Assembly: GCA_021850865.1 (NCBI GenBank)
Contig: JAJZKN010000005.1
Coordinates: 1 to 37,596, forward strand
Source: a bacterium
GTDB taxonomy: Bacteria; Patescibacteriota; Saccharimonadia; Saccharimonadales; UBA4665
DNA: 37,596 bases
Direction of reading: 5' to 3'
This document shows positions 9,666 through 29,469 of this stretch, one piece after another. Position numbers and translations under genes: made by a program. The first letter of the stretch is position 1. Each line of letters opens with the position of its first letter. The notes beneath the pieces were generated by a model. That model saw nothing but the letters and a program-made list of their open reading frames with translations. It made no database searches and was not told the DNA's origin.

Positions 9666-10319
9666 ATGAAAATTCAAATCATTACCCTGTTTCCGGAGAT
9701 ATTCGATGGGATATTCGCTGCCAGTATGCTCTACAAGGCCGCACTTAAGCAGATTGTCAGTTATGAAATTATTAACCTGCGGGACTTTGGCCAAGGAGTT
9801 CGTTACCGGGTCGACGATACGCCATACGGCGGGGGCGACGGTATGCTGCTGATGGTCGAGCCGCTGCAAAAGGCTATTGAGCTAGCCAAGTCAAACGATC
9901 CAGATGCGGCCGTGATTCTGCCAACCCCAAGAGGGTCCAGCTATAGGCAGTCGGCAGCTAAAGCTCTAGCCAAGTCCGGCCGCGGGCTGATTATTATCTG
10001 TCCGCGCTACGAAGGTTATGACGAGCGGATCGTCAACTGGGTGGACTACCAGTTTAGTATCGGCAATTTTATTTTGACCGGGGGCGAACTGCCGGCGGCG
10101 GTTATTATTGATTCGGTCGTCAGGCTTCTGCCCGGCGTATTGGGCGGTGCCAGTTCGGCGGAAATCGAATCTTTTCAGCAGAACGATATGAACATTGAAT
10201 TTCCGCAGTACACCCGGCCGGAAGAATTTATGGGCTACCGGGTGCCGAAGGTACTATTGAGCGGTAACCATGCCAAAATTGCCGCATGGCGGCAAAAACA
10301 CTCCGCTTCCGGCGATTAG
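9666..10319 (+). CDS. trmD: tRNA (guanine37-N1)-methyltransferase
   Basis: SPOUT-class methyltransferase that makes m1G37 in tRNAs and prevents +1 frameshifting. The sequence starts MKIQIITLFPEIF, has DTPYGGGDGM at 51-60, PRYEGYDER at 113-121, and the SAM-binding trefoil knot GNFILTGGELPA at 133-144. The catalytic Asp is in IDSVVRLLPGVLG at about 149. At 217 residues it is slightly shorter than the usual 230-250, trimmed at the C-terminus. It begins 9 bases after khpA and ends the translation block; rplS does not follow in this window. Confidence 0.96.
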   Translation: MKIQIITLFPEIFDGIFAASMLYKAALKQIVSYEIINLRDFGQGVRYRVDDTPYGGGDGMLLMVEPLQKAIELAKSNDPDAAVILPTPRGSSYRQSAAKALAKSGRGLIIICPRYEGYDERIVNWVDYQFSIGNFILTGGELPAAVIIDSVVRLLPGVLGGASSAEIESFQQNDMNIEFPQYTRPEEFMGYRVPKVLLSGNHAKIAAWRQKHSASGD

Positions 10320-10339
10320 TCCATAGCAATCTAGTTAAA

Positions 10340-10786
10340 CTAAAATGTTTGTCTTAGGGCGGTCTGCCGCTGCTTAGCTACGCTCTGCCTTAGATCAACC
10401 GCGAGACTGGTAATTTCCGCGTTGCATTCCAGCCGGCTGATGAGAGATTTCGGTCGAATGCCGCCGGTAATTGCCCGGATCCTTTCTCTTTTGGTAGTGC
10501 CGCCCGCCACGCCTTCAACCTCTTGTACTCTCAGTGCATAGTCCAGACAGTTTTCCATGCATCGGCAACCGAGGCAATAAGCCTTAGCCAGTTTCTGATC
10601 CTTGGCGTCTTCACTTATGAAAATACTCCTTGGGACTGCATAATTACAGTTCATTAAGGCCGGGTTCAAACTGTTTAGCGCATTAAACGACTCCGGAATA
10701 GGCACGAAGCCCGGTCGTCCATCGGGCTTTTCGCCGGAGTGCTCTAGATTAGCGCTAACTTCACCTAATGTTTCCCAGCTGGCCAT
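10340..10786 (-). CDS. WhiB-like iron-sulfur regulator
   Basis: A 148-residue protein with the WhiB arrangement. Cys47 is followed by C71-x2-C74-x5-C80 in CLGCRCMENCLDYAL, then GVAGG at 92-96 (G[VI]WGG in WhiB) and a basic TTKRERIR stretch for DNA contact. The four cysteines would bind a [4Fe-4S] cluster sensing oxygen or nitric oxide. Trp in the turn is replaced by Ala, and there are extra cysteines at 76 and 121. I chose the ATG at 10786 because AAGAAGG precedes it and a sigma70 promoter lies over the longer TTG-started alternative (10837). It is divergent from the nickel SOD gene. WhiB proteins are otherwise regarded as actinobacterial. Confidence 0.8.
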   Translation of the reverse strand: MASWETLGEVSANLEHSGEKPDGRPGFVPIPESFNALNSLNPALMNCNYAVPRSIFISEDAKDQKLAKAYCLGCRCMENCLDYALRVQEVEGVAGGTTKRERIRAITGGIRPKSLISRLECNAEITSLAVDLRQSVAKQRQTALRQTF

Positions 10787-10808
10787 ATTTACCTTCTTAT
10801 AAATAGGC

Positions 10809-10837
10809 AGCATAGTCATTTCTTTAGTAAATTGCAA
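10809..10837 (-). promoter_or_regulatory. promoter of the WhiB-like gene
   Basis: On the minus strand TTGCAA (10837-10832) and TATGCT (10814-10809) are spaced by exactly 17 bases, with TG three bases before the -10 as in extended promoters. The ATG at 10786 follows with an AAGAAGG site between. This placement argues against the longer upstream starts. Confidence 0.55.
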
Positions 10838-10946
10838 GTGTCTTTATGGTTAACCTTTCGCCGACTGTAAGCTGCGGCTCTGAATTTAAGATGCTCCGCC
10901 GCGCGCTATAATCCGGCTGCGCACCGGTTTAGTTATCGTGTTGCTA

Positions 10947-10952
10947 TATAAT
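10947..10952 (+). promoter_or_regulatory. -10 element of sodN
   Basis: TATAAT at 10947-10952, with a GGAGG ribosome binding site at 10976-10980, seven bases before the sodN ATG. The divergent WhiB-like promoter is about 110 bases away, so the region between 10838 and 10946 could hold shared control sites; none was recognised. Confidence 0.55.
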
Positions 10953-10987
10953 AGAGCTTAAGCTATTAGAATAACGGAGGTTAATCA

Positions 10988-11374
10988 ATGAAACTGTTAA
11001 GTATTATTAAGCCCGTATATGCACACTGTGACTTGCCGTGCGGCGTTTATGATCCGGCGCAAGCCGGAATCGAAGCCGAAGCTATCTATGAGATCTTAAA
11101 AAAGTATGAAGCGCTGGGCGAGCATGACAAAACCAGGGCCATTATTATCAAAGAAGAACGGGCGGAACTGGTCAAACATCATTTAATGGTGCTTTGGGCG
11201 GATTACTTCAAACCAGAGCACATTGAGAAGTACCCTGAGCTGCATGAGATGTTCTGGAAGGCAATCAGGCAGGCTAGTGCCTGCAAGCGTCACCTTGACC
11301 CGGAAGAAGGCCGAAAACTGGTCGAGCAAATTGACGGCATTGCCAAGATTTTCTGGGAAACCAAACAGGCGTAG
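10988..11374 (+). CDS. sodN: nickel superoxide dismutase
   Basis: Ni-containing superoxide dismutase, 128 residues. After a 12-residue leader (MKLLSIIKPVYA) comes the nickel hook HCDLPCGVYDP. Cleavage before His13 would free the N-terminal His1, and Cys2, Cys6 and Tyr9 of the mature protein are all present. The remaining ~105 residues are the four-helix bundle of the family. The leader is short and not a Sec signal, so the enzyme should stay in the cytosol. The processing protease is encoded four bases downstream. A strong GGAGG site fixes the start. No nickel transporter is seen nearby. Confidence 0.95.
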   Translation: MKLLSIIKPVYAHCDLPCGVYDPAQAGIEAEAIYEILKKYEALGEHDKTRAIIIKEERAELVKHHLMVLWADYFKPEHIEKYPELHEMFWKAIRQASACKRHLDPEEGRKLVEQIDGIAKIFWETKQA

Positions 11375-11378
11375 ACCG

Positions 11379-11732
11379 ATGCCGGTTGTGCTATTGCGCC
11401 GGATCGTCGGACTAAGTATGGCTCCGACCTTGAGCGAGGGTCGGTTGGTGCTCGGACTGACCGGAGTTAAAAAGGTTAAGGTCGGCCAAGTTTATGTATA
11501 TACACAAGACGGACGGGAAGTAATCAAACGCTTAACGCAAGTCCGTGGCGAAGAGATGTTTTTTGTCGGCGATAACCGTGCTTTGAGTAGCGACAGCCGG
11601 ACATTCGGTTGGGTTGGTCCAGACCGGCTGATTGCTCGGGTGATCTGGCCGCCGGCTAAACGGCCATCAGGCTTCGATGTGTCTGAATCTGAAAGCGCCA
11701 AATCCGACCAAAACAACCAGGGTAATCGCTAA
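11379..11732 (+). CDS. sodX: nickel-type SOD maturation protease SodX
   Basis: S26-family peptidase of 117 residues, matching the small soluble proteases that remove the SodN leader. The catalytic Ser13 lies in GLSMAPTL and the general-base Lys50 in EVIKRL, followed by FVGDNRALSSDSRTFGWV. The start at 11379 is chosen because upstream codons in this frame overlap sodN and do not look like signal peptidase. The last 66 bases overlap the end of the oppositely oriented ABC permease gene, and this overlapping tail (Ser/Asn/Gln-rich) is probably dispensable. It is unlike type I signal peptidase in having no membrane anchor. Confidence 0.9.
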   Translation: MPVVLLRRIVGLSMAPTLSEGRLVLGLTGVKKVKVGQVYVYTQDGREVIKRLTQVRGEEMFFVGDNRALSSDSRTFGWVGPDRLIARVIWPPAKRPSGFDVSESESAKSDQNNQGNR

Positions 11733-12410
11733 GGCCAACAGATCATGCCAGATGCCAAAGCGGGTTGTTCCGATTAGCGTCCAGCGGAGGGCGTCAACAG
11801 TATAGGAGATCGGATTAATTTCAGCGATAATTCGCAGCCAGGCCGGTACCCGGTTAAGCGGATAGAGAGCGCCGCTCAAGAAATACAATGGAAATATCAG
11901 GAACTGGTTAATCGCCTGAAACCCTTGCATATCGTTAACGAAGGACCCGATGCCTGAGCTAAAACTGGTGATCGCTACAGCCAGTACGCTCATAATAACA
12001 ATAGTCAGCGCTAGTTGCGACCAGTGCGGTTTAAAACCTAAAAACAACGATATAACAAAAACCAGCATGCCCTGAATCACCGACGTTGTTGCCCCGCCAA
12101 GAGCCCCGCCGAACATTATCTTAAAACGGCTGTCCGGAGCGACAAGCGTTTCTTTTAAAAAGCCGAACTGCCGGTCGAATATAATCATTGCGCCGTAAAA
12201 CATCGCAGAAAAAAGTACCGTCTGAACCATAATTCCCGGCACTAAGAACTGCAGGTAATTTCCCTGACCGGCGGCTTTGTAAACCGAGCCAAGACCGTAT
12301 CCGAGAGCCAGCAAAAAAAGCAGCGGCTGACCGATGGCTCCGACGATTCTGGATTTACTCCGGACATATTTCTTCAGCTGCCTTAACCACAAAATATAGA
12401 TGACTCTCAT
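11667..12410 (-). CDS. ABC-2 type transporter permease
   Basis: A 247-residue ABC-2 permease with about six hydrophobic segments, beginning MRVIYILWLRQLKKYVRSKSR and containing the family's FLVPGIMVQTVLFSAMFYG and LYFLSGALYPLNRVPAWLR (the loop before the last helices). It is the DrrB-like partner of the ATPase encoded just upstream, the two genes overlapping by four bases. Together they should export a hydrophobic compound. Its 3' end overlaps sodX in convergent orientation. Confidence 0.93.
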   Translation of the reverse strand: MRVIYILWLRQLKKYVRSKSRIVGAIGQPLLFLLALGYGLGSVYKAAGQGNYLQFLVPGIMVQTVLFSAMFYGAMIIFDRQFGFLKETLVAPDSRFKIMFGGALGGATTSVIQGMLVFVISLFLGFKPHWSQLALTIVIMSVLAVAITSFSSGIGSFVNDMQGFQAINQFLIFPLYFLSGALYPLNRVPAWLRIIAEINPISYTVDALRWTLIGTTRFGIWHDLLALAITLVVLVGFGAFRFRHIEA

Positions 12411-13195
12411 CGCATCACCCTGGCCCGCTGCCGTTCCCGCCAGGCCTCGCCCTTACTGACGCTTTCATCACGAATTTCTTTGCCGGTCAGTTTCAAATAA
12501 GCTTCCTCCAAACTTTGGCTCTTGGTGCTCTTTTTCACCTCGTCGGCTGGCGCTACAATCAATAATTTACCATGATCGATAATAGCGATGCGGTCGGCGT
12601 TAGTCTCGGCTTCTTCCAGGTAGTGGGTAGTGAAAAAAATAGTCATATCTTTTGTCTTAGCTAAATTGCCGACATATTCCCATAGCAGATTTCTGGTTTG
12701 GGCGTCCAGGCCTAAAGTCGGCTCATCCAGAAACAATATTTTTGGTTGGTGCAGTAAACCTCTGGCGATTTCCAGCCGTCGTTTCATACCGCCGGAGAAG
12801 GTTTTGACCAGACTGTTGCGCCGATCCCAGAGCTCGACTAAAGTCAGCAACTCTTCTATTCTTGTTTTGATTCGTTTTGGTTTCAAGTGATACATTACGG
12901 CGTGCAACTGCATGTTTTCATAAGCGGTCAAATCCAAGTCCAAAGACGGATCCTGAAAAACAATACCGAAGCTTTTACGCACCGCGCTCTGCTGTTTAAC
13001 GACATTGTAGCCGTTTAGTTTCAGACTGCCCGCCGTCGGCTTGAGTAGCGTGGTTAACATCTTGATGGTCGTAGATTTACCGGCGCCGTTCGGACCAAGC
13101 AAGGCGAAGAGCTCGCCTGGTTCGACCTTAAAAGATATATCATCAACCGCAGTAAAACTGCCGAATTTCTTAACCAGGTGATTTACTTCTATCAT
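12407..13195 (-). CDS. ABC transporter ATP-binding protein (DrrA-like)
   Basis: ATPase subunit of 262 residues. Walker A GPNGAGKS is at 34-41, followed by a Q-loop (VFQDPSLD), the signature FSGGMKRRLEIARGL, Walker B ILFLDEPTLGLD and the switch His in FFTTHYLEEAE. The sequence is of the DrrA/NodI type that pairs with ABC-2 permeases. It overlaps the permease and the upstream MFS gene by four bases each, so the four genes marR-MFS-ATPase-permease form one coupled operon. Confidence 0.95.
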   Translation of the reverse strand: MIEVNHLVKKFGSFTAVDDISFKVEPGELFALLGPNGAGKSTTIKMLTTLLKPTAGSLKLNGYNVVKQQSAVRKSFGIVFQDPSLDLDLTAYENMQLHAVMYHLKPKRIKTRIEELLTLVELWDRRNSLVKTFSGGMKRRLEIARGLLHQPKILFLDEPTLGLDAQTRNLLWEYVGNLAKTKDMTIFFTTHYLEEAETNADRIAIIDHGKLLIVAPADEVKKSTKSQSLEEAYLKLTGKEIRDESVSKGEAWRERQRARVMR

Positions 13196-14793
13196 AGCTC
13201 GATCGGGGAATGACTTTTTATATCTTCAACTGATGTCGCTGGAATCGGATCGTGCGACGAACGTAGCGGCGTTTCACGCAGGATTAAAGCGGTAATCAAA
13301 GCGCCGCCAACGAAAGGCAGCCCGATCAAAAACATATCGTGAAAAGATTTGACGTAAGCGCTAAGCACGTCGTGGCGAATATAGGCCGGCAATTTCAGCA
13401 TGACATTGCTGCTAGTTTCCAGCGCGGATACGAGGGACTGTCCGGCCTGTTTGACCGCCGACGTGGCGCCCAGGCTTTTTTCCAGGTAGTAGGTAAGTCG
13501 CGTGATCAGAATTGTGCCAAAAATGGCTCCCCCTAAGGCACTGCCGATACTCCGGAAAAAAGTAGTGGTGGATGTGGCGGTACCGAGTTCGTGGCGCTCC
13601 ACGGCATTTTGAACCGCCAAAGTCGGCACCTGCATGATCGAACCGAGCCCCAACCCGGTAATGACCATCCAAATAGATAAGGTAGTTTGGCTGGTACTTA
13701 AGCTGACATGCGTAAACAGCCAGATTCCCAGACCGAGTAAAATCGTGCCGATAATCGGAAACGGTTTGTAGTGGCCCCATTTGGTAATTATCCGGCCGCT
13801 GGCGATCGACGCCGCCATCATACCGATTACCAGCGGGATCATCATAAGACCGGACTTGGTGGGGGAATAACCCCGGGCTACCTGCTGGTATAGGGGAATA
13901 TAGAGAATGGTAGCGAACATAGCAATGCCGGTCAGGATTGACATCAATACCGATACGGTCAGGATATCGTTTTTAAATAACCGCAATGGCATCAACGGTT
14001 CCGGCGCCTGCTTTTCCCAGAGAGTAAACCCAAGAGTGAAGACAATAAATGCCGCTATCAGTGAAATAATTTCCGGGCTTCCCCAGGAGTACTGAATGCC
14101 GGCCCATACCGACACCAACATAATGCTGACAACGGAAATCGATAGCAGTGCGGCGCCGACATAGTCGATTTTGTGCTGGCGCTTAAACGCTGGTAAGTGC
14201 AGCCTGGTGGCAACAGCTGCTAAGGCCAGCACCCCAAGTGGTAAGTTTATATAAAAGATCATTCGCCAGCCGCTAACGCCGAAAATGGAATGAGTGCCGG
14301 CTAAAAACCCGCCGAGCAGCGGTCCGGCCACACTGGCGACACCGAATACCGCACCGAAGTACCCCTGATATCTGCCTCTTTGTCGTGGGGGTACGATATC
14401 GCCGATAATTGCCAGCACTAAACTCATAAGTCCGCCACCGCCGATGCCTTGAAGGGCTCTAAAGGCGATGAGCTGATGCATACTGGTGCTTAGGCCGCAT
14501 AAGGCTGAACCTACCAGGAAAATAATAATGGACAACTGGAATAGTTTTTTGCGACCGAATAAATCACCCAGCTTACCGTAGATGGGGGTAGCAATGGCGC
14601 TGGTTAGCAGGTAGGCGGTGGCCACCCAAGAATATTCATTCAGCCCATGCAGGTCACTGGCAATGGTCGGTAGCGCGGTGGCCACAATCGTCTGGTCCAG
14701 CGCTGAAAGCAACATGGCCAGCATCAAGGCTGACATAATCACCAGAATTTCTTTATGCGTGCGTTCGCCGGTTAAAACTCTGGCGTCACTCAT
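13192..14793 (-). CDS. DHA2-family MFS drug transporter
   Basis: A 533-residue major facilitator protein of the 14-helix DHA2 (drug:proton antiporter) class. Family features are LDQTIVATALPTIASDL in helix 1 (antiporter motif D region), GKLGDLFGRKK (motif A) after helix 2, and ALQGIGGGGLMSL in helix 4. It is coupled on both sides: the MarR gene overlaps by eight bases upstream, the ATPase by four downstream. Control by the MarR protein and an export function are the natural reading; the substrate is unknown. Confidence 0.93.
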   Translation of the reverse strand: MSDARVLTGERTHKEILVIMSALMLAMLLSALDQTIVATALPTIASDLHGLNEYSWVATAYLLTSAIATPIYGKLGDLFGRKKLFQLSIIIFLVGSALCGLSTSMHQLIAFRALQGIGGGGLMSLVLAIIGDIVPPRQRGRYQGYFGAVFGVASVAGPLLGGFLAGTHSIFGVSGWRMIFYINLPLGVLALAAVATRLHLPAFKRQHKIDYVGAALLSISVVSIMLVSVWAGIQYSWGSPEIISLIAAFIVFTLGFTLWEKQAPEPLMPLRLFKNDILTVSVLMSILTGIAMFATILYIPLYQQVARGYSPTKSGLMMIPLVIGMMAASIASGRIITKWGHYKPFPIIGTILLGLGIWLFTHVSLSTSQTTLSIWMVITGLGLGSIMQVPTLAVQNAVERHELGTATSTTTFFRSIGSALGGAIFGTILITRLTYYLEKSLGATSAVKQAGQSLVSALETSSNVMLKLPAYIRHDVLSAYVKSFHDMFLIGLPFVGGALITALILRETPLRSSHDPIPATSVEDIKSHSPIEL

Positions 14794-15316
14794 TGACTAA
14801 ATCCTGCTTAAAGTTAGTTTTTCCGGCGGTAATGGAAGAATCGGGTGCGATATTGAATCGAGCGGTCATATCGGCGGCAAAACGCTCCAGAAGTATTACT
14901 AGCTGCTCTATGTCGGAACTGGTCCAGTCGCTGACTATTTCACTTAACAGCTGGTGTTTAGCCTGAGTCAGTTTTTTGGCCAGCGATTTGCCGCGACTGC
15001 TAAGTCTTAACTCGTGAACGCGGCGATCCGCTGTCGGCACTCGTTCGACTAAGCCGGCGGATTCCAGCATATGAACCTTGCGACTGACCGACGGAGCTTC
15101 AATGCCCAGCCGGCTGACCAGTTGCTGGAACTGACATTGGTCGCTGGCGTCGAGTGTGCCGACAATGGCAGAAGCGGGGCGATCCAGCTGCACGTCGGCC
15201 CGGTTAAGCACCGTTTCCCAGTAATCCGAACGCTTAAATGTTCGAATATATGAAGTTAAGGCCGCTTCTAAACGATCCAATTCGTCTTGTTTGATTGAGA
15301 CTTTGTCTTTAGGCAC
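14786..15316 (-). CDS. MarR-family transcriptional regulator
   Basis: Winged-helix repressor of 176 residues. The recognition-helix region LGIEAPSVSRKVHMLESAGLVERV and the wing ADRRVHELRLSSRGK lie at about 89-131. Flanking helices form the dimer interface. The start is GTG at 15316, only six bases after a TATAGT -10, so translation is probably leaderless. A perfect 11-base inverted repeat covers the -35 and spacer of its own promoter, which fits autorepression of the marR-MFS-ABC operon and release by a ligand that the pumps would remove. Confidence 0.92.
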   Translation of the reverse strand: MPKDKVSIKQDELDRLEAALTSYIRTFKRSDYWETVLNRADVQLDRPASAIVGTLDASDQCQFQQLVSRLGIEAPSVSRKVHMLESAGLVERVPTADRRVHELRLSSRGKSLAKKLTQAKHQLLSEIVSDWTSSDIEQLVILLERFAADMTARFNIAPDSSITAGKTNFKQDLVNE

Positions 15317-15322
15317 TACCCT

Positions 15323-15351
15323 ACTATAACAAAATTAATTACTTGTGTTAA
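15323..15351 (-). promoter_or_regulatory. promoter of the marR efflux operon
   Basis: Minus-strand TTAACA (15351-15346) and TATAGT (15328-15323) are 17 bases apart. Transcription about 7 bases past the -10 would begin at or next to the GTG start at 15316. Confidence 0.65.
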
Positions 15352-15360
15352 GTAATTAAT
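15334..15360. promoter_or_regulatory. MarR operator palindrome
   Basis: ATTAATTACTT and its exact reverse complement AAGTAATTAAT flank a 5-base centre, 27 bases in all. The site overlaps the -35 and the spacer of the marR promoter, where bound MarR dimer would block RNA polymerase. Its right arm includes the stop codon of the neighbouring gene at 15356-15358. Confidence 0.7.
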
Positions 15361-15787
15361 AAGGCAGATTCGGATTAATAGTTTGGCCCGACGGTTGGGC
15401 TGTGGTCCCCGATTGCAACGTACTGGCACTGCCGCCGGTTGTGCTTTTCCTTTGCGGAACATTTTGTAATCCGGTATAAGCCGAGCCTAGTGCCCCGCTT
15501 GAACTTGAAGGCTGAGATGCTCCATTTTTCGTCAAAGTCGACGCTAGCGGGCTGGCGTTAATGGCGCTGCCAAGAGGCAGAGCCTGGACGTTAGCATATT
15601 TAGCGCTCGACCCGGTCAGCTGTTTAACACCCTGATTATTATGGTTAATTAGAATGCCGGCGCCAACAATAAAGCCGATTCCGACGATAATGGCCACCAA
15701 GCTGACTGCCGCGCGTTTCCCGTTAGCTGAAGAGTCGGCCAAGTCTGCTTCGTGATCATCTTGATTTACCAGTTCGGTTTTAATCAT
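15356..15787 (-). CDS. single-pass exported protein, unknown
   Basis: A 143-residue protein of unknown family. Residues 1-25 are polar and cytosolic, about 26-48 form one membrane helix (SLVAIIVGIGFIVGAGILI), and the rest is a low-complexity Ser/Gly/Thr/Ala/Gln-rich stretch without cysteines that should lie outside the cell. There is no lipobox. It is encoded just upstream of marR on the same strand and its stop codon lies in the MarR operator. It resembles the stalk regions of other exported proteins in this window, without a folded domain at the end. Confidence 0.65.
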   Translation of the reverse strand: MIKTELVNQDDHEADLADSSANGKRAAVSLVAIIVGIGFIVGAGILINHNNQGVKQLTGSSAKYANVQALPLGSAINASPLASTLTKNGASQPSSSSGALGSAYTGLQNVPQRKSTTGGSASTLQSGTTAQPSGQTINPNLPY

Positions 15788-15864
15788 TATCTTTAACTAT
15801 ACCTCAAATTTAGTTTTGCTTAAACCGGGGTATATACCGAATTTATAACGCCTGGATTAAGGTA

Positions 15865-15870
15865 TATAAT
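15865..15870 (+). promoter_or_regulatory. -10 element upstream of the lectin-CHAP gene
   Basis: TATAAT at 15865-15870, about 75 bases before the ATG at 15945. It lies in the divergent region between the anchored unknown protein and the CHAP gene. No clear ribosome binding site precedes the ATG. Confidence 0.4.
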
Positions 15871-15944
15871 GATAAAGCCACTCAAGACGTTGCCTGCGGT
15901 AACGTCGGTAAAAACAAAAATAATAAGCGAACAATATTGTAGCC

Positions 15945-17021
15945 ATGAACGCCAGCCGCCCGTCCAGTTACGGTTTTTATCCGAGACAACCCTTAGTTAC
16001 TAAACCCCCGGTGAAAAAATCTACCGTCGGAGGGTATGTCAAACTATTCGCCGTCATCATTCTGGCCGCCGGTTTGATCTGGTGCGGTTTGTTTATTAGC
16101 AGTTTGGGGGCAGTTAGCGCCGACAGTCTGCAGCCGCAAATTAGAGTAGATGTCGGAGATAATTGCCTGGACGATTACCATGGCCAGCTGAAATCCGGTT
16201 CCATCGTAGATTCCTGGACATGCAATGGCACCCAATCGCAAGCGTGGTCGTTTAGCGGCAATCTTATCAGCTTAAAAAATAAGTATTGTCTGGCCGTAAC
16301 AACCGATAATAAGACGGTTATTGAGCGTTGTTCGGTTACGGCCCACAACCAATCTTGGAGCAGGGACGGAGTCGGCCTGGTGAATAACGGGAATCACCGG
16401 TGTCTTTCTTTGCCCGCCGGCAAAACAAAAGTCCAGCTGATTACCGCCAGCTGCAGCCAACTGACGTCGGTTAACGAATCGTGGACGCCGGATTATTGGT
16501 CCGGTAAACCTCTGGCGCAAATGTCCAGTCCCGCTTGCGACCAAGCTACTATCGGTGCCAGGGTCGCATGTGATGCTGAAAAACAATGGCTGGCTTGGCA
16601 GACCGAGCCGACACTGCATAGCGTACTGCTTAACTATTACACCGCCGGCAACCCTTACGAGGAATGGTGTGCTGATTTTGTCAGCTATATTTATAACGAA
16701 GCCGGAGCTCCGTTCAAGTACGGCGAGAGGGGAAACGGTTGGGATGAGTACAACGCCAACAATATCCGCTATATGGGCTTTACTTACCATCCGGCTAACG
16801 GTACATATCTCCCTCAGCCCGGCGATGTGGCATTCTTTGACTATGCCGGCGGCCATGTCGAGATCGTCGCAAAGGGCGGACCGCATCCGACTTTCATTTA
16901 TGGTGATTCCGGTACGATCGACCCCTATACCGGTAACGGCAATATGGCGGAGAACCAGATAGTTAATGATGGCAGCGCGGGTCATCTAATGTATTACCTA
17001 TCCCCCAACCCCGGTGTCTAG
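15945..17021 (+). CDS. anchored ricin-type lectin and CHAP amidase/peptidase
   Basis: A 358-residue surface protein. Residues 1-30 are cytosolic, about 31-57 form a membrane anchor or uncleaved signal, 62-185 are a ricin B-like (beta-trefoil) sugar-binding region with QAW at 99-101, QSW at 136-138 and paired cysteines, and 200-355 are a CHAP domain. In the CHAP domain Cys242 (EEWCADFVSY) and His304 (AGGHVEIV) are the expected catalytic pair. CHAP enzymes cut peptidoglycan amide or peptide bonds. The lectin may aim it at wall glycans, either its own or those of a host bacterium. Confidence 0.85.
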   Translation: MNASRPSSYGFYPRQPLVTKPPVKKSTVGGYVKLFAVIILAAGLIWCGLFISSLGAVSADSLQPQIRVDVGDNCLDDYHGQLKSGSIVDSWTCNGTQSQAWSFSGNLISLKNKYCLAVTTDNKTVIERCSVTAHNQSWSRDGVGLVNNGNHRCLSLPAGKTKVQLITASCSQLTSVNESWTPDYWSGKPLAQMSSPACDQATIGARVACDAEKQWLAWQTEPTLHSVLLNYYTAGNPYEEWCADFVSYIYNEAGAPFKYGERGNGWDEYNANNIRYMGFTYHPANGTYLPQPGDVAFFDYAGGHVEIVAKGGPHPTFIYGDSGTIDPYTGNGNMAENQIVNDGSAGHLMYYLSPNPGV

Positions 17022-17051
17022 GATTTTATTAAGGCAGGCTTCAGTTGGCTG

Positions 17052-17057
17052 TATAAT
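17052..17057 (+). promoter_or_regulatory. -10 element close to the membrane-protein start
   Basis: TATAAT ends 12 bases before ATG 17070 and 6 before the alternative GTG 17064. Either start gives a nearly leaderless message. Confidence 0.5.
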
Positions 17058-17069
17058 AATTCAGTGACT

Positions 17070-18599
17070 ATGCCGAAAGTACTGTCGAGGGTAGCCGAAT
17101 ACTTCCGAAGTGTTAAGTTCTACCGTTTAATCCTGATTCTGTTTATTCTTGAGTCGGTTTGGATTGCCTTTTCGGCCGCTTATCCCCAGGCCTTTGATGA
17201 GAATTTCCATTTCGGATTAATCAAAGTTTATTCGCATTACTGGCTGCCGTTTTTAACTTCTCAGCCGCCGCATGCCGACGCTTTCGGTGCTGTTGCCCGG
17301 GATCCTTCATATCTCTATCACTATTTAATGAGTTTTCCGTACCGGATTATTGAGCTGTTCGCCAAAAGCCAGATGAGTCAGGTAATAATCCTGCGCCTGA
17401 TCAATATTGGTCTGTTCAGTTGGGGCATAGTGCTTTTCCGCAGAATTCTGATCCGGGTTGGCACCTCCAAGGCGCTGACAAACCTGATCTTAATGCTGTT
17501 TATTTTGATTCCGATCGTGCCGCAGTTGGCTGCCCAGATCAGTTACGACAACCTGCTAATGCCGTTGACCGCGGCGTTTATACTCTTGGCCTTCAGGGTC
17601 GTCGATGAGATAAAAAACAAACAAGCTTCAATCTGGACAATTAGTATGCTGTTGATTTTCGGTCTATTCATCAGCCTTGTTAAGTACGCCTTTATGCCAA
17701 TATTTGCCGGCGCCATCCTGTTTCTGGCCGTGCTGCTCTATCAGGTTAACCGGCACAAAATCAAAAAGTTCTTTTCTCAACTGCGAGTGAGCTGGGCAAA
17801 ACAACGAACACTGGCCAAGGCGGTAATTATAATTCTAAGTATAGTTTCGCTCGGCATGTTCATTCAACGTGACGGTGTTAATCTGGTGGTTTATCATAAT
17901 CTTCAGCCCAACTGCTCCAAAGTACTGTCCGTTAAACAGTGTATGGCCTATTCGCCGTGGGCCTACAATTACAAGAACCATGCCAAAGTAATCAGCGGCG
18001 CTTCGACTTTCTCCTATACGAATCCGGTCGTTTATTTCTCTCAGTGGGTATATTGGATGTGGTATCGTTTATTCTTTGCGGTTAACGGTCCAAAGACTCA
18101 TTTTAAAAACTATCCGCCTTTGCCGCTCCCCAGCTTGGCGATGGCGATCGTGTTGATTGCCGGAACCTATGCGATTATCAAATGGCGCAAAAAAATCTTC
18201 GCCAAAAATTTGTATCTGGTACTGCTATTTGTTATCACGCTATCTTATCTGGTGGCTTTAATGGGCCAGGGCTACGTTACCTATCGTTATACCGCCGTAC
18301 TGGAAAACATGAACGGACGGTATTTGTTGCCGATTATGCTACTGGGTGCGGCCGTAGCGGGACAGGCTCTGTCCGTGGCCTTTAAGCAACGCAGCCGCAA
18401 GATAATTTTTGCCTTGTTAATACTGGTTTTGTTCTTACAGGGCGGAGGGCTGCTGACGTTTATCACTCGCAGCAATCCGACTTGGGATGTGCACAATCAA
18501 ACGGTAGTTAAAGTCAACAATGTGGCCCGCAAAGTCGTAAAAAACGTTGTGGTTAAGGGTTCCCGCCACTACGGCACCAAAGTATGGTTTTTTAATTAA
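17070..18599 (+). CDS. polytopic membrane protein, possible GT-C glycosyltransferase
   Basis: A 509-residue membrane protein with roughly ten or more hydrophobic segments. An early acidic loop (PQAFDENFHFG) follows helix 1, as in GT-C-fold glycosyltransferases where Asp/Glu in the first outer loop is catalytic, and ISYDNLLMPLTA resembles the DUF2142-type family. The last ~45 residues are a short hydrophilic tail. It may transfer a sugar from a lipid carrier onto a wall polymer or protein. A GTG six bases upstream (17064) is an alternative start. Its TAA shares the palindrome TTAATTAA with the stop of the convergent GT2 gene. Confidence 0.6.
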   Translation: MPKVLSRVAEYFRSVKFYRLILILFILESVWIAFSAAYPQAFDENFHFGLIKVYSHYWLPFLTSQPPHADAFGAVARDPSYLYHYLMSFPYRIIELFAKSQMSQVIILRLINIGLFSWGIVLFRRILIRVGTSKALTNLILMLFILIPIVPQLAAQISYDNLLMPLTAAFILLAFRVVDEIKNKQASIWTISMLLIFGLFISLVKYAFMPIFAGAILFLAVLLYQVNRHKIKKFFSQLRVSWAKQRTLAKAVIIILSIVSLGMFIQRDGVNLVVYHNLQPNCSKVLSVKQCMAYSPWAYNYKNHAKVISGASTFSYTNPVVYFSQWVYWMWYRLFFAVNGPKTHFKNYPPLPLPSLAMAIVLIAGTYAIIKWRKKIFAKNLYLVLLFVITLSYLVALMGQGYVTYRYTAVLENMNGRYLLPIMLLGAAVAGQALSVAFKQRSRKIIFALLILVLFLQGGGLLTFITRSNPTWDVHNQTVVKVNNVARKVVKNVVVKGSRHYGTKVWFFN

Positions 18600-24903: not shown

Positions 24904-25611
24904 ATGAGGATATTAGTCATTGAAGATGAAAAGCGTATCGCTGAAGCAATCAGGCGATCGTTAGAGACTGTAGGCTATATCATCGATACTAAGGCTAATT
25001 TTAACGAAGGATTTCATTCCGCACTAAACCCAGATTACGACCTTATTGTTCTCGACCGTATGCTACCTAACCATACTGACGGGCTGGAGATCGTTAAGTT
25101 GATTAGGGAGAGAAAAATCAGCACACCGGTGTTGCTGCTCAGTGCCCTGTCGGAGGTTGACGAAAGGGTCGAAGGACTACGGGCCGGCGCCGACGACTAT
25201 CTGCCCAAGCCGTTTTCCATTAAAGAACTGACTGCCAGAATCAAGGTTTTGCTTAGACGGCCAAAAACGCATCTGGGCAACCAATTGAGCGTCGGCGATT
25301 TACGCTTAGACAGCGAAAGCCGCGAAGCCGTCCGAGCCGGCAGGCGAATTAAACTATCACGGCGCGAATACAAACTGCTGAACTACTTGTTGCACAATCA
25401 AGACCGGATTATCTCTAAAGCCGAAATCATTAGTCACGCTTGGGACGCTGATTCGATTATTTTGCCCAATACCGTAGAAGTCTACATCGGCTATTTGCGC
25501 AAAAAAATCGACAAGGACTTCCCCGATAGGCCGGCGCTGATTCATACGGTTTTCGGTTTCGGTTATCGCATCGGCGAAGAAACGTCAACGACAGTCAAGG
25601 TAATAGACTAA
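24904..25611 (+). CDS. OmpR-family response regulator
   Basis: DNA-binding response regulator of 235 residues. The receiver domain (1-118) has the acidic pair E7-D8, phospho-acceptor D51 and K102 in LPKPF. The C-terminal winged helix (about 127-228) contains LSRREYKLLNYLLHN and the wing sequence HTVFGFGYRIG. The kinase gene begins at the base after its TAA, so the two form a pair. Confidence 0.96.
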   Translation: MRILVIEDEKRIAEAIRRSLETVGYIIDTKANFNEGFHSALNPDYDLIVLDRMLPNHTDGLEIVKLIRERKISTPVLLLSALSEVDERVEGLRAGADDYLPKPFSIKELTARIKVLLRRPKTHLGNQLSVGDLRLDSESREAVRAGRRIKLSRREYKLLNYLLHNQDRIISKAEIISHAWDADSIILPNTVEVYIGYLRKKIDKDFPDRPALIHTVFGFGYRIGEETSTTVKVID

Positions 25612-26634
25612 ATGTTTCGTTCGGCGCTGATCAAGTTGACGTTGTATTACGTCGGGTTGGCAATGTTATTAAGTCTGCTGTTCAGCGTGGTAATGTACCA
25701 TTTCGCCACCTATGAACTGCGCGAAGGGCTTAACCGCCAATATTCGGAGCTGGTCATTAAGCAAAAAGACAACGAGACTAACGGTATCTATAATGCCGGT
25801 GAATATAACAAACGGGCAAACCAACTGCTGGTAGACTTTGTCTATTTCAACTTAGTGGTGCTCGGACTGTCCGCCGGAGCAAGTTATGCTCTGGCTCGCC
25901 GTACGCTTAAACCAATACGGATTGCTCATCAAGCCCAATCCCGCTTTGCCTCGCTGGCTAGTCACGAGCTGAGGTCGCCGCTGGCCGCGATGCGCGCCGA
26001 CACCGAATCGATACTAATGATCAACCCTCAGCCGTCGCCGCCGGAACTGGTTAAAACTCTTAAATCTAATTTAGCGGATATAAAAAGAATTGAGCGATTA
26101 GCCAACCAATTATTACAACTAGCTCGACTGCAGTCGGCCCAAACAGTAAATTTTCAAGATTTTGATTTAATCCGTCTGATTCGGAGTAACATTACCCAAG
26201 CCCGACGTGCCGGCCAACGATTTAATATAAAGATATCTATGCATAGTCCGCCGCCGCAGCTAGTTATTAGCGCGGACAAATTTGGCCTGGATCTGTTAAT
26301 CTCGGCGCTGCTGGATAACGCCGTCAAATATAATAACCGGGGTGGCAAAGTCGATGTGACGGTTAAACTTCTTGGTTCCGCCCAGGCGATGCTAGAAATT
26401 TCCGATAACGGGCAGGGCATCGACACCAAAGACAGACCTTACGTATTTGAGCCCTTTTACCGTTCATCCGCCAAGAGTCGCACCGGCGGTAGCGGGGCTA
26501 ATGGCTATGGTTTAGGCTTGTCTCTGGTCAAGGAGATTGTTGACGCGCACCATGGGACAATTAAACTGGATAGCCAGCCGGGTAAAGGAACGACGGTTAG
26601 TGTTTATTTGCCGCGGAATAATCGGACAAGATAA
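25612..26634 (+). CDS. sensor histidine kinase
   Basis: A 340-residue membrane kinase. Two helices (about 10-33 and 74-96) enclose a short ~40-residue outer loop, too small for a folded ligand domain. The dimerisation box is SHELRSPLAAMR with phospho-acceptor H118; the ATPase domain has LLDNAVKYN (N box), ISDNGQGI (G1) and GYGLGLSLVKEIV (G2). It directly follows its regulator and precedes the FMN-binding/ApbE/NqrB-FNR genes by 39 bases, so it may govern them. The small outer loop suggests sensing in or near the membrane. Confidence 0.95.
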   Translation: MFRSALIKLTLYYVGLAMLLSLLFSVVMYHFATYELREGLNRQYSELVIKQKDNETNGIYNAGEYNKRANQLLVDFVYFNLVVLGLSAGASYALARRTLKPIRIAHQAQSRFASLASHELRSPLAAMRADTESILMINPQPSPPELVKTLKSNLADIKRIERLANQLLQLARLQSAQTVNFQDFDLIRLIRSNITQARRAGQRFNIKISMHSPPPQLVISADKFGLDLLISALLDNAVKYNNRGGKVDVTVKLLGSAQAMLEISDNGQGIDTKDRPYVFEPFYRSSAKSRTGGSGANGYGLGLSLVKEIVDAHHGTIKLDSQPGKGTTVSVYLPRNNRTR

Positions 26635-26673
26635 TCAGCATATCTACAGTTAAGCTTGGCAATATAGGCGCTT

Positions 26674-27198
26674 ATGAAGAAGTTTGTTATTGGCATTGCA
26701 GTTATTGGCATATATTTAATTTACAGCATAGGAATCAGGCACACGAACCCGATATTGCCGATTCCTTCATCACTGGCCAATGCTAAAACGAAAAGCTCCG
26801 GCAGCGGTTCGACTACTGCCGCCGCTACCTCGTCGTCTACCACATCCGGCAGCAGCAGTTCAGCTTCCGGAAGCTCGAGCGCTGCGAGCAGCCAGTCAAG
26901 CTCAAAGCCGTCCAGCGGCAAGTATAAGGACGGTACGTATACTGGCGCGACTGAAAACGCCTACTACGGCAACGTGCAAGTTTCGGTTGTCGTTTCCGGC
27001 GGCCGGATCAGCGACGTTAAGTTTTTACAATATCCTAACAGCCACTCAACTTCGGTCTACATTAACCAACAGGCAATGCCTTATTTGAAACAGGAGACAC
27101 TACAAGCTCAAAGCGCAAACGTACAATCAATTACCGGAGCTACTTTTACCTCATACGCTTTTATTCAATCACTCCACTCGGCGCTAGCTAAAGCATAA
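26674..27198 (+). CDS. exported FMN-binding domain protein
   Basis: A 174-residue electron carrier. A signal-anchor helix (4-20) is followed by a Ser-rich flexible linker (about 41-81) and an FMN_bind domain (84-173) of the NqrC/RnfG type. The motif ITGATFTS at 153-160 is the recognition site at which ApbE links FMN to Thr, here most likely Thr157. The protein should sit outside the membrane with a covalently attached flavin. The genes for its flavin transferase and for a membrane oxidoreductase follow at once. Confidence 0.88.
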   Translation: MKKFVIGIAVIGIYLIYSIGIRHTNPILPIPSSLANAKTKSSGSGSTTAAATSSSTTSGSSSSASGSSSAASSQSSSKPSSGKYKDGTYTGATENAYYGNVQVSVVVSGGRISDVKFLQYPNSHSTSVYINQQAMPYLKQETLQAQSANVQSITGATFTSYAFIQSLHSALAKA

Positions 27199-27203
27199 AA
27201 ATT

Positions 27204-27947
27204 ATGAAAAGGACCGAACTGATTATGGGCATGCCTGTCACGCTTGAGATAGCTCTGGTTAAGGAAGCCGATCCCTTTGACCAGGTATTTGCGTATTTTA
27301 AGGATGTCGATGAGCGATTCAGTCCGTATAAAAAAACCAGCGAACTTTCCTTGCTAAACGATGGGAAATTAAAGGAACCGGATTATTCGGCGGATATGCG
27401 TGAAGTCCTAGAGCTTTGCAGTGAAACCAAACGGATCAGCGGCGGCTTTTTTGATATCGTCAAAAGTAACGGCCGGCTTGACCCCTCGGGCCTGGTTAAG
27501 GGTTGGGCCATCAACCATGCCGCCAATTTATTAAGAAGTATGGGGTATGATAACTTTTGCCTCGAGGCTGGTGGGGATATTCAGACCTCTGGCCAAAACG
27601 AAGATGGCCATCCCTGGTCTATCGGCATCCGTAACCCTTTTAATATTGAGCAGATTGTCAAAGTGGTAGAACTGAGCGATCGCGCTATTGCCACCTCCGG
27701 AACATATATCCGCGGCGAGCATATCTATAATCCGCTGGCCGGATATGTCAGGCCGGCCGGAATTAAAAGTCTAAGTGTTATCGGGCTTAATATTTTCGAG
27801 GCCGACCGGTTTGCTACTGCGGCTTTTGCCATGGGTCCGGATGAAGGTTTGGCGTTTATCAGCGCATTACCGGAAATGCAAGCCTATTTAATCGGCGACG
27901 ACCAATCAGTAACCTTTACGAAAGGATTTGAGGCCTATGTGGCTTAG
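27204..27947 (+). CDS. apbE: FAD:protein FMN transferase ApbE
   Basis: ApbE cleaves FAD and attaches FMN to Thr in the target motif of flavoproteins. The 247-residue sequence has MGMPVTLEI at 9-17, ERFSPYKKTSELSLLN, DPSGLVKGWAIN, LEAGGDIQTSG and the metal-site region AIATSGTYIRG...HIYNPLAG. It lacks a signal peptide, unlike many exported ApbEs, so its export or site of action is uncertain. It lies five bases after the FMN-binding protein, its obvious substrate, and its end overlaps the start of the fused oxidoreductase gene. Confidence 0.94.
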   Translation: MKRTELIMGMPVTLEIALVKEADPFDQVFAYFKDVDERFSPYKKTSELSLLNDGKLKEPDYSADMREVLELCSETKRISGGFFDIVKSNGRLDPSGLVKGWAINHAANLLRSMGYDNFCLEAGGDIQTSGQNEDGHPWSIGIRNPFNIEQIVKVVELSDRAIATSGTYIRGEHIYNPLAGYVRPAGIKSLSVIGLNIFEADRFATAAFAMGPDEGLAFISALPEMQAYLIGDDQSVTFTKGFEAYVA

Positions 27948-29469
27948 ACTAATCGAACCGCTAGATAAAATAATTGATTCGATCACGATGTATCGTTTGT
28001 TGCTTTACTATCTGGGCGGTTTAGTCCTGGCGGCCGCTGGATTGTCGGCCGTCGGAGTTCTTCATTTCAGCGCCATATCCATTTTAATTTCGGCCATAGT
28101 TTTGGTTTTCGCCTGCTGGCTGATCAATAAAATTTTAGCTTCGATCTTTAATGCGCCAGTCAACCCCGAATCATCGATTCTAACCGGCTTGATTCTGGTT
28201 TTGATATTACCGCCGCAGCCTACCGGCTCCGGGCTGCTTTTTATGCTAGCGGCCTCCGGTCTGGCTATGGCTTCAAAGTATCTCCTGACTATTAAGCGCA
28301 AACATATTTTTAACCCGGCAGCGGTCGCCGTGGTACTGACCGCACTCGGTCCGAGGCAAAGCGCCAGTTGGTGGGTGGGTACGGCGTCGATGCTGCCGTT
28401 TGTAATTATTGGCGGTCTTTTACTGGTTAGGAAAATACGCCGCGGGCAAATGGTCAGTGTTTATCTGTTGGCAACGACGATTGTGACTGCGGTGTTTTCG
28501 ATCAGCGGCGGCCAGTTAATACCTAATATCAAAAACATGATTTTGACTTCATCCGTATTCTTTTTGGGATTTGTTATGTTAACCGAGCCGTATACTTCGC
28601 CGACTACCAGAACAAAACAGATCTGGTATGCGATTATTGTCGGAACGCTGTTGGCTCCTCAGTTTCATATCGGCAGCTATTATCCGGCGCCGGAAATGGC
28701 TCTGATCTTCGGGAATCTGTTTGCTTATCTGACTGGAGATAAAACCAAACTATATTTGAGTCTGTTCCGGAAATACAAAATAGCCGGTGATACTGCCGAA
28801 TTCTCCTTCGTCACTAACCAGAAATTTGACTACAAACCCGGCCAGTATATGGAATTTACCTTACCTCACGAGAAACCGGACTCCAGGGGGGTCAGGCGTT
28901 ACTTTACAATGTCCTCTTCACCGACTGAAGATCATTTAAAGCTGGGTGTTAAGTTTTACGAGCCGGGCAGCAGCTATAAGGCCGCTTTGCTGGATATTGA
29001 CCAGAACTCGACTTTTGTCGGAGCCCAGCTGGCCGGAGACTTTGTGCTGCCGGAGTCTGATCCGAATCAAAAGCTGTTATTTATTGCCGGCGGTATCGGC
29101 ATTACACCTTTCCGCAGCATGATCAAATACCTAATCGACAAGCATGAACGACGGGACATTATCCTGCTTTATTCGGTGCGCAGCAGTGATGATCTTGCTT
29201 ACAAGGAATTACTAGACCAGGCCGTTAAGGAAATCGGACTGAAGGTAGCCTATTTCATAACCTCCAGACAAGCGAAAGCTGTTGGCGTCAATGTTTTTCG
29301 CCAACAAATCAACCGCCGGGTATTAACCAAGCAAATTAGCGATTTAGATGAGCGCTTAATATACATTTCCGGCACTCATCCGATGGTCGAGTCAATGCAG
29401 GAACTACTTCACGAAATCGGCATAGCCCATGACCGGATCAAAATCGACTTTTTCCCGGGATATGCTTAG
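27937..29469 (+). CDS. RnfD/NqrB-like membrane domain fused to ferredoxin reductase module
   Basis: A 510-residue fusion. Residues about 20-275 hold some eight membrane helices with the RnfD/NqrB signatures SSILTGLILVLILPP, HIFNPAA and TEPYTSPTTR. From about 280 comes an FNR-like module: FAD-binding RRYFTMSSSP, NAD(P)-binding FIAGGIGITPFRSM, and a C-terminal YISGTHPMVESM and IDFFPGY. No 2Fe-2S ferredoxin motif is seen. The expected path is cytosolic NAD(P)H to FAD to membrane-bound flavin to the exported FMN protein. The ATG at 27937 (AAAGGA ten bases upstream) is preferred to TTG 27928. Whether it pumps ions is unknown. Confidence 0.88.
   Translation: MWLRLIEPLDKIIDSITMYRLLLYYLGGLVLAAAGLSAVGVLHFSAISILISAIVLVFACWLINKILASIFNAPVNPESSILTGLILVLILPPQPTGSGLLFMLAASGLAMASKYLLTIKRKHIFNPAAVAVVLTALGPRQSASWWVGTASMLPFVIIGGLLLVRKIRRGQMVSVYLLATTIVTAVFSISGGQLIPNIKNMILTSSVFFLGFVMLTEPYTSPTTRTKQIWYAIIVGTLLAPQFHIGSYYPAPEMALIFGNLFAYLTGDKTKLYLSLFRKYKIAGDTAEFSFVTNQKFDYKPGQYMEFTLPHEKPDSRGVRRYFTMSSSPTEDHLKLGVKFYEPGSSYKAALLDIDQNSTFVGAQLAGDFVLPESDPNQKLLFIAGGIGITPFRSMIKYLIDKHERRDIILLYSVRSSDDLAYKELLDQAVKEIGLKVAYFITSRQAKAVGVNVFRQQINRRVLTKQISDLDERLIYISGTHPMVESMQELLHEIGIAHDRIKIDFFPGYA

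Follow-up and report, generated by a model that had tools for sequence, protein, structure and literature searches.

The window analysed here is a 37,596-nucleotide stretch of a Saccharibacteria genome (contig JAJZKN010000005.1 of assembly GCA_021850865.1). Between positions 24,904 and 29,469 it carries five genes on the forward strand: a two-component pair and a trio encoding a flavin mononucleotide (FMN)-binding protein, an ApbE-type FMN transferase and a membrane protein fused to a flavin adenine dinucleotide (FAD)/NAD(P)H reductase. It is proposed that these genes probably encode a flavinylated module of the NQR/RNF-like type that exports electrons and has a regulator of its own. The features of the locus are as follows.

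24904..25611, + strand: OmpR/PhoB-type response regulator (Pfam Response_reg and Trans_reg_C)
25612..26634, + strand: sensor histidine kinase (Pfam HisKA and HATPase_c)
26634..26649, + strand: conserved direct-repeat element ATCAGCATATCTACAG, candidate operator, found at this position whether or not the locus has the pair
26656..26665, + strand: third conserved block TTGGCAATAT, ending in the -10-like hexamer CAATAT (consensus of 23 sites; putative promoter function)
26674..27198, + strand: membrane-anchored FMN_bind protein with the candidate flavinylated Thr157 in SITGATFTS (Pfam FMN_bind, E=1.2e-9)
27204..27947, + strand: ApbE FAD:protein FMN transferase without signal peptide, catalytic triad S165-H173-D201 (Pfam ApbE, E=1.7e-44)
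27937..29469, + strand: fusion of an NqrB/RnfD-like membrane domain with a cytosolic FAD/NAD(P)H reductase (Pfam, structure model and profile match)

The open reading frame (ORF) of the kinase directly abuts that of the response regulator; its product has two N-terminal hydrophobic stretches with a short loop between them, and no sensor domain was recognised by Pfam or in the sequence. Gene positions and Pfam assignments agree with an earlier sequence-only reading of this DNA in placing the trio in a row, with a 5-base gap between the FMN_bind and ApbE genes and overlapping ends at the fusion gene. The fusion could start at a TTG at 27928 (20-bp overlap), and the ATG at 27937 (11-bp overlap) is preferred because it fits the relatives better. 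Three Pfam domains fall in this single protein, NAD_binding_1 (E=2.5e-15), NQR2_RnfD_RnfE (E=3.5e-11) and FAD_binding_6 (E=4e-5). Its AlphaFold model, computed from an alignment with 52 relatives, has a mean predicted local distance difference test score of 91.5 and a predicted template-modelling score of 0.84. Taken by itself, the membrane part has profile matches to RnfD (8ahx, E=9e-5) and NqrB (7xk3, E=0.0025), and the C-terminal part matches NqrF and flavohemoprotein reductases; a Foldseek search with the entire fusion was set aside because the reductase domain dominates the matches, and the membrane domain was tested by profile instead.

The same architecture has been published as the NQR/RNF-like flavinylation system, reported from 127 genomes, mainly of Actinobacteria and the candidate phyla radiation (CPR), and proposed to be a one-way electron carrier from NAD(P)H to an external FMN (Meheust 2021, PMC8238504). 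It has been modelled in Ktedonobacter racemifer (PMC10979944/PMC11334425), with a flavin near the NqrB/RnfD-like flavin site (PMC10979944). Both versions have an NqrB/RnfD-like domain fused to a PF00175 reductase, an FMN_bind partner, ApbE in the cluster and no covalent FMN site in the membrane subunit. Since the window shares this architecture, its fusion shares about 46% identity with the K. racemifer protein and the fusion contains no [ST]GA[ST] motif, the operon is, as judged from its sequence, a member of a type already described, and the suggestion that this minimal form is new has to be given up. What the window lineage adds is the two-component pair, the conserved upstream element and a Gln in place of the motif Asp. 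The literature yielded no earlier description of the recurrence of the pair beside the trio, of the conserved element, of the motif change or of a leaderless ApbE in such clusters, and our searches found no paper treating the NQR/RNF-like system in Saccharibacteria. The Na+-NQR and Rnf complexes share the homologous NqrB/RnfD-like domain, the NqrF-like reductase part and an NqrC/RnfG-like FMN protein, whereas the window operon lacks their other subunits, any 2Fe-2S or ferredoxin module and a return path to the cytosol, so that ion pumping by it is not evident. The comparison with the full Na+-NQR/Rnf set covers the three genes at the locus, as the other subunits were not searched genome-wide; outside contig C1 (see below) the genome encodes a single PF03116 protein.

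The FMN domain matches in fold domain 2 of SaFMN3 (8p2a; template-modelling score 0.94 by target length, 39% identity), a multi-flavinylated protein of which the domain 2 structure has been solved. Gly155, Ala156 and Thr157 are invariant among the 44 sequences aligned, and this, with the Pfam domains found together in one fusion, bears out the candidate flavinylated threonine and the fused reductase named earlier. In the FMN proteins a membrane anchor starts near residue 5, preceded by the nearly invariant Lys2 and Lys3 and followed by a long Ser/Thr-rich linker; the earlier description of the protein as exported rests on this anchor, which is indeed present.

The ApbE protein has ApbE relatives in the Protein Data Bank, and its catalytic triad is kept in 48/48 aligned members. 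Main-family members begin with M-[KR]-x-T-x-[IL]-IMGMP or a close variant, and neither a hydrophobic N-terminus nor a signal peptide was found in any ApbE of the clusters examined. A signal peptide is likewise missing from the genus's divergent second ApbEs wherever the start is readable. Leaderless ApbE is common to Ktedonobacter as well, a feature of which we found no discussion in the literature, and the complete 11.3-Mb chromosome of Ktedonosporobacter rubrisoli has exactly one ApbE gene, leaderless, and one FMN_bind gene, adjacent to each other. TatC of the twin-arginine translocation (Tat) system was not found in 17 of the 19 congeners, all six high-quality ones among them. The window's own bin does hold a TatC gene (G000:C9:36627-37250), which may have been retained in this lineage or may lie on one more misbinned contig.

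That an ApbE without a leader should act on a target that seems to lie outside is a topological contradiction: either FMN is attached before export by the Sec pathway, or the FMN domain lies on the inner side after all, or ApbE itself gets out by an unrecognised route. A leaderless ApbE in Klebsiella pneumoniae serves a soluble cytosolic enzyme, and external targets are as a rule served by an exported ApbE (PMC12052999). The K. pneumoniae enzyme resembles that of the window in having no signal peptide (PMC12052999) but differs in its target, a soluble cytosolic fumarate reductase, whereas the window target is membrane-anchored and probably faces outward. Listeria PplA/FmnB likewise combines an external FMN_bind carrier with an ApbE-type enzyme that flavinylates it, but FmnB works outside the cytosol (PMC9973259) and the electron input differs. 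ApbE can act on motifs as short as seven residues and failed on an engineered target that was already folded (PMC12052999; PMC10722498), which makes FMN attachment before folding plausible. Cytosolic attachment would be the simplest route, given that this ApbE carries no export signal and that Tat is missing from most congeners. We therefore put forward, tentatively and as a proposal that is rather more likely to be wrong than right, that the leaderless ApbE flavinylates its target in the cytosol and that the unfolded FMN-bearing chain is then exported via Sec, in mostly Tat-less lineages and under dedicated two-component control. If so, this route would differ from that known for other external ApbE targets.

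The full-length fusion is present in 57 of the 93 genomes of the window's family and 18 of the 19 in its genus (counted by hand from the listed matches), which makes the system a common one, not a rarity, within this Saccharibacteria family. Under a strict test, the FMN_bind, ApbE and fusion genes stand in the same order at 48 of 63 loci, from Saccharibacteria to Ktedonobacteria; the remainder are contig ends, a few fusions without adjoining partners, and members of a divergent subfamily in which the test misses the FMN gene. This shared order is far beyond chance, and persistence of the trio among many different neighbours indicates that it behaves as a unit, which answers in the affirmative the question of conservation and synteny raised by the sequence-only reading. 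On its sequence, the operon is real, conserved and functional-looking.

Some further loci of this type were noted. The divergent subfamily (fusions about 31-42% identical; L099, L100, L102-L108) occurs in other genera, and its ApbE is leaderless where present. One genome with a complete trio also carries a second FMN_bind and fusion locus without an ApbE gene (L088, G028:C18). The 7.6-kb contig C1 binned with the window's genome (G000:C1, L029) holds a five-gene set whose fusion is 70% identical to that of the window. It was rejected as a paralogous second copy, as 2,340 bp are identical to the congeneric genome G063 and the latter's own regulator matches that of C1; most probably C1 comes from a sister species and was misbinned, and paralogue counts for the genome would be wrong if it were kept.

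The regulator and kinase genes immediately precede the trio in the window clade and in several further genera; in one distant genome (L027) they immediately follow it. Across 15 five-gene loci the pairwise distances of regulator and kinase follow those of the fusion (rho 0.67 each, permutation p at most 0.0005) as closely as do those of FMN_bind and ApbE, an agreement that shared species history alone could also give. Mapped onto the fusion tree, presence of the pair takes 8 changes versus 12.8 for shuffles, 0 of 500 being as low. A regulator homologue about 50% identical is found elsewhere in most genomes of the family; in the window's genome it belongs to a paralogous pair (regulator 50% identical) situated some 5 kb from the operon of a bo3-type oxidase and near an NDH-2-like gene.

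L175:6530-8323 and 10159-18026 (G000:C6 about 34529-46025): paralogous pair and oxidase operon region

This oxidase-linked pair may serve the flavin operon in clades without an adjacent pair.

Directly upstream of the FMN gene, the consensus of 23 sites reads ATCAGC-N6-ACAG and continues with TGGCA and a -10-like hexamer rich in AT. Its CAG, CAG and GGC blocks are spaced 11 bp apart, like the direct repeats of OmpR/PhoB-type regulators, and the exact element match is unique in the window. In 19 genomes the exact pattern was counted 35 times, versus 14 for the reversed control; 16 of these hits are found right before the trio and account for 16 of the 18 congeners that carry it when the contig C1 hit is counted for the genome to which it belongs. 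A wider regulon within the genus was considered and rejected, the other inspectable exact hits lying in ORFs and the surplus of 35 over 14 being about the number of trio sites. The fusions of congeners with the element are just 54-70% identical to that of the window, and retention of a mostly non-coding element at such divergence suggests that it is functional; the adjacent regulator would be the candidate to bind it. The hexamer ends 8 bp ahead of the FMN-gene ATG, and the FMN message may thus be leaderless.

In the proposed pathway, NAD(P)H would reduce the FAD of the fusion's cytosolic reductase domain, and electrons would cross the membrane via a flavin bound, probably non-covalently, in the NqrB/RnfD-like domain. 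They would then pass to the FMN on the anchored FMN_bind protein outside, which would reduce an external acceptor, with ferric iron as the best guess. ApbE would attach this FMN to Thr157, most simply in the cytosol before or during Sec export, and the adjacent kinase and regulator would probably switch the trio through the direct repeat just upstream. Export is supported by the domain content and order, the RnfD/NqrB and NqrF-like matches, the invariant Gly-Ala-Thr and the intact ApbE triad, and by the same path having been proposed for the published architecture; the trio is also kept as a unit. The agreement of pair and fusion distances and the conservation of the element upstream of the FMN gene argue for a module with its own regulator, and the leaderless ApbE throughout, with the single ApbE and FMN_bind genes of K. 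rubrisoli, is in line with the proposal as a whole. The general path given by the sequence-only reading, from cytosolic NAD(P)H to an outside flavin, thus appears right in outline.

Several points weigh against this proposal. Positive-inside counts favour an FMN domain on the outside, though not throughout: they place it there in 34 cases, are equal in 9 and point the other way in 9. The published ApbE motif is D-x-x-[ST]-G-A-[ST], with a conserved Asp six residues ahead of the flavinylated residue; the window protein keeps [ST]GAT but has Gln151 at the Asp position and does not match the full motif. A sister clade of the same genus has the trio in the same chromosomal place but lacks the adjacent pair, which in the window clade stands between the FMN gene and the gene for UTP-glucose-1-phosphate uridylyltransferase. 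Control by the pair is therefore not universal: the earlier statement that the trio stands under a two-component pair holds for the window clade and some other genera and fails for the sister clade, where the upstream element is still there. The iron link rests on a few neighbour genes, and no biochemical test of an NQR/RNF-like system was found in the literature.

Among the competing explanations, the module might be an alternative NADH dehydrogenase that feeds the bo3-type oxidase or the quinone pool, instead of reducing anything extracellular. The genome does encode this oxidase and an NDH-2-like protein, and NqrB relatives reduce quinone; but the trio is unlinked to the oxidase genes, beside which the NDH-2-like protein already stands, and quinone reduction needs no outward FMN carrier, so that we regard this as unlikely. 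Ranked just below it is a cytosolic FMN domain, which would make the module a membrane-bound cytosolic flavin reductase with no electrons crossing the membrane. The missing ApbE export signal in every cluster examined would fit, and the charge distribution at the anchor is not decisive in every member. However, the nearly invariant lysines followed by a Ser/Thr-rich linker resemble those of outward-facing proteins, the RnfG/NqrC relatives face outward, and the published model has the flavin near the NqrB/RnfD-like flavin site (PMC10979944).

That ApbE leaves by an unrecognised route and flavinylates outside as usual is less probable still. ApbE normally acts outside, and in the reviewed cases a cytosolic-only ApbE did not replace an exported one (PMC12052999), but no cluster member has a signal peptide or anchor, the divergent second ApbEs of the genus likewise lack one where the start is readable, and K. 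rubrisoli has no other ApbE. Least probable of the four is that the FMN protein is not flavinylated at all, holding FMN non-covalently or carrying a relic motif. The motif position in 50 sequences is Gln in 33 (the window included), Asp in 7, Asn in 5, Ser in 4 and Gly in 1; Gln prevails in most Saccharibacteria, and the Asp forms include Ktedonobacteria and other CPR. Replacing the motif Asp by Ala, though, affected one tested target only slightly (PMC12052999), so Gln151 need not imply loss of function, and the Gly-Ala-Thr is invariant beside an ApbE with intact triad. A search for ApbE residues co-varying with the Asp/Gln switch gave just one conservative D/E difference.

Ferric iron as the acceptor of the outside flavin in the proposed export pathway is a best guess that falls slightly short of an even chance, and it is suggested by neighbouring genes. 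In G010 the trio has a VIT-family transporter nearby, and published clusters of the NQR/RNF-like type also include VIT1 (PMC8238504); a Fur-family gene follows the trio in one small clade, and a homologue of the genome's Ferric_reduct gene adjoins the trio in G045 and flanks it on both sides in G038. The genome has, in addition, a separate flavin locus (L030:5486-8355; G000:C6 about 51485-54354) in which a leaderless ApbE lies between the Ferric_reduct membrane protein and an FAD/NAD reductase whose C-terminus bears a membrane segment and a proline-rich tail, with no adjoining FMN_bind gene; its homologues flank the trio in G038 and adjoin it in G045. The earlier remark that no cytochrome is involved is correct for the trio itself but not for the genome, which also encodes the bo3-type oxidase operon and the NDH-2-like protein (the latter read by eye), as reported for soil Saccharibacteria (PMC8407418). 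With a terminal oxidase present, the trio is not necessarily the sole electron outlet of the cell. The sequence-only reading overlooked this oxidase, as it did the lack of a signal peptide on ApbE and Gln151 in the motif. The FAD synthetase PF06574 was not found in the genome, which at 68% completeness proves nothing.

The association of a predicted flavin electron-export system with a specific signalling pair and a concrete DNA site means that its trigger can be searched for. Cytosolic flavinylation before export, if true, would be of greater interest, since it would bear on the maturation of external flavoproteins.

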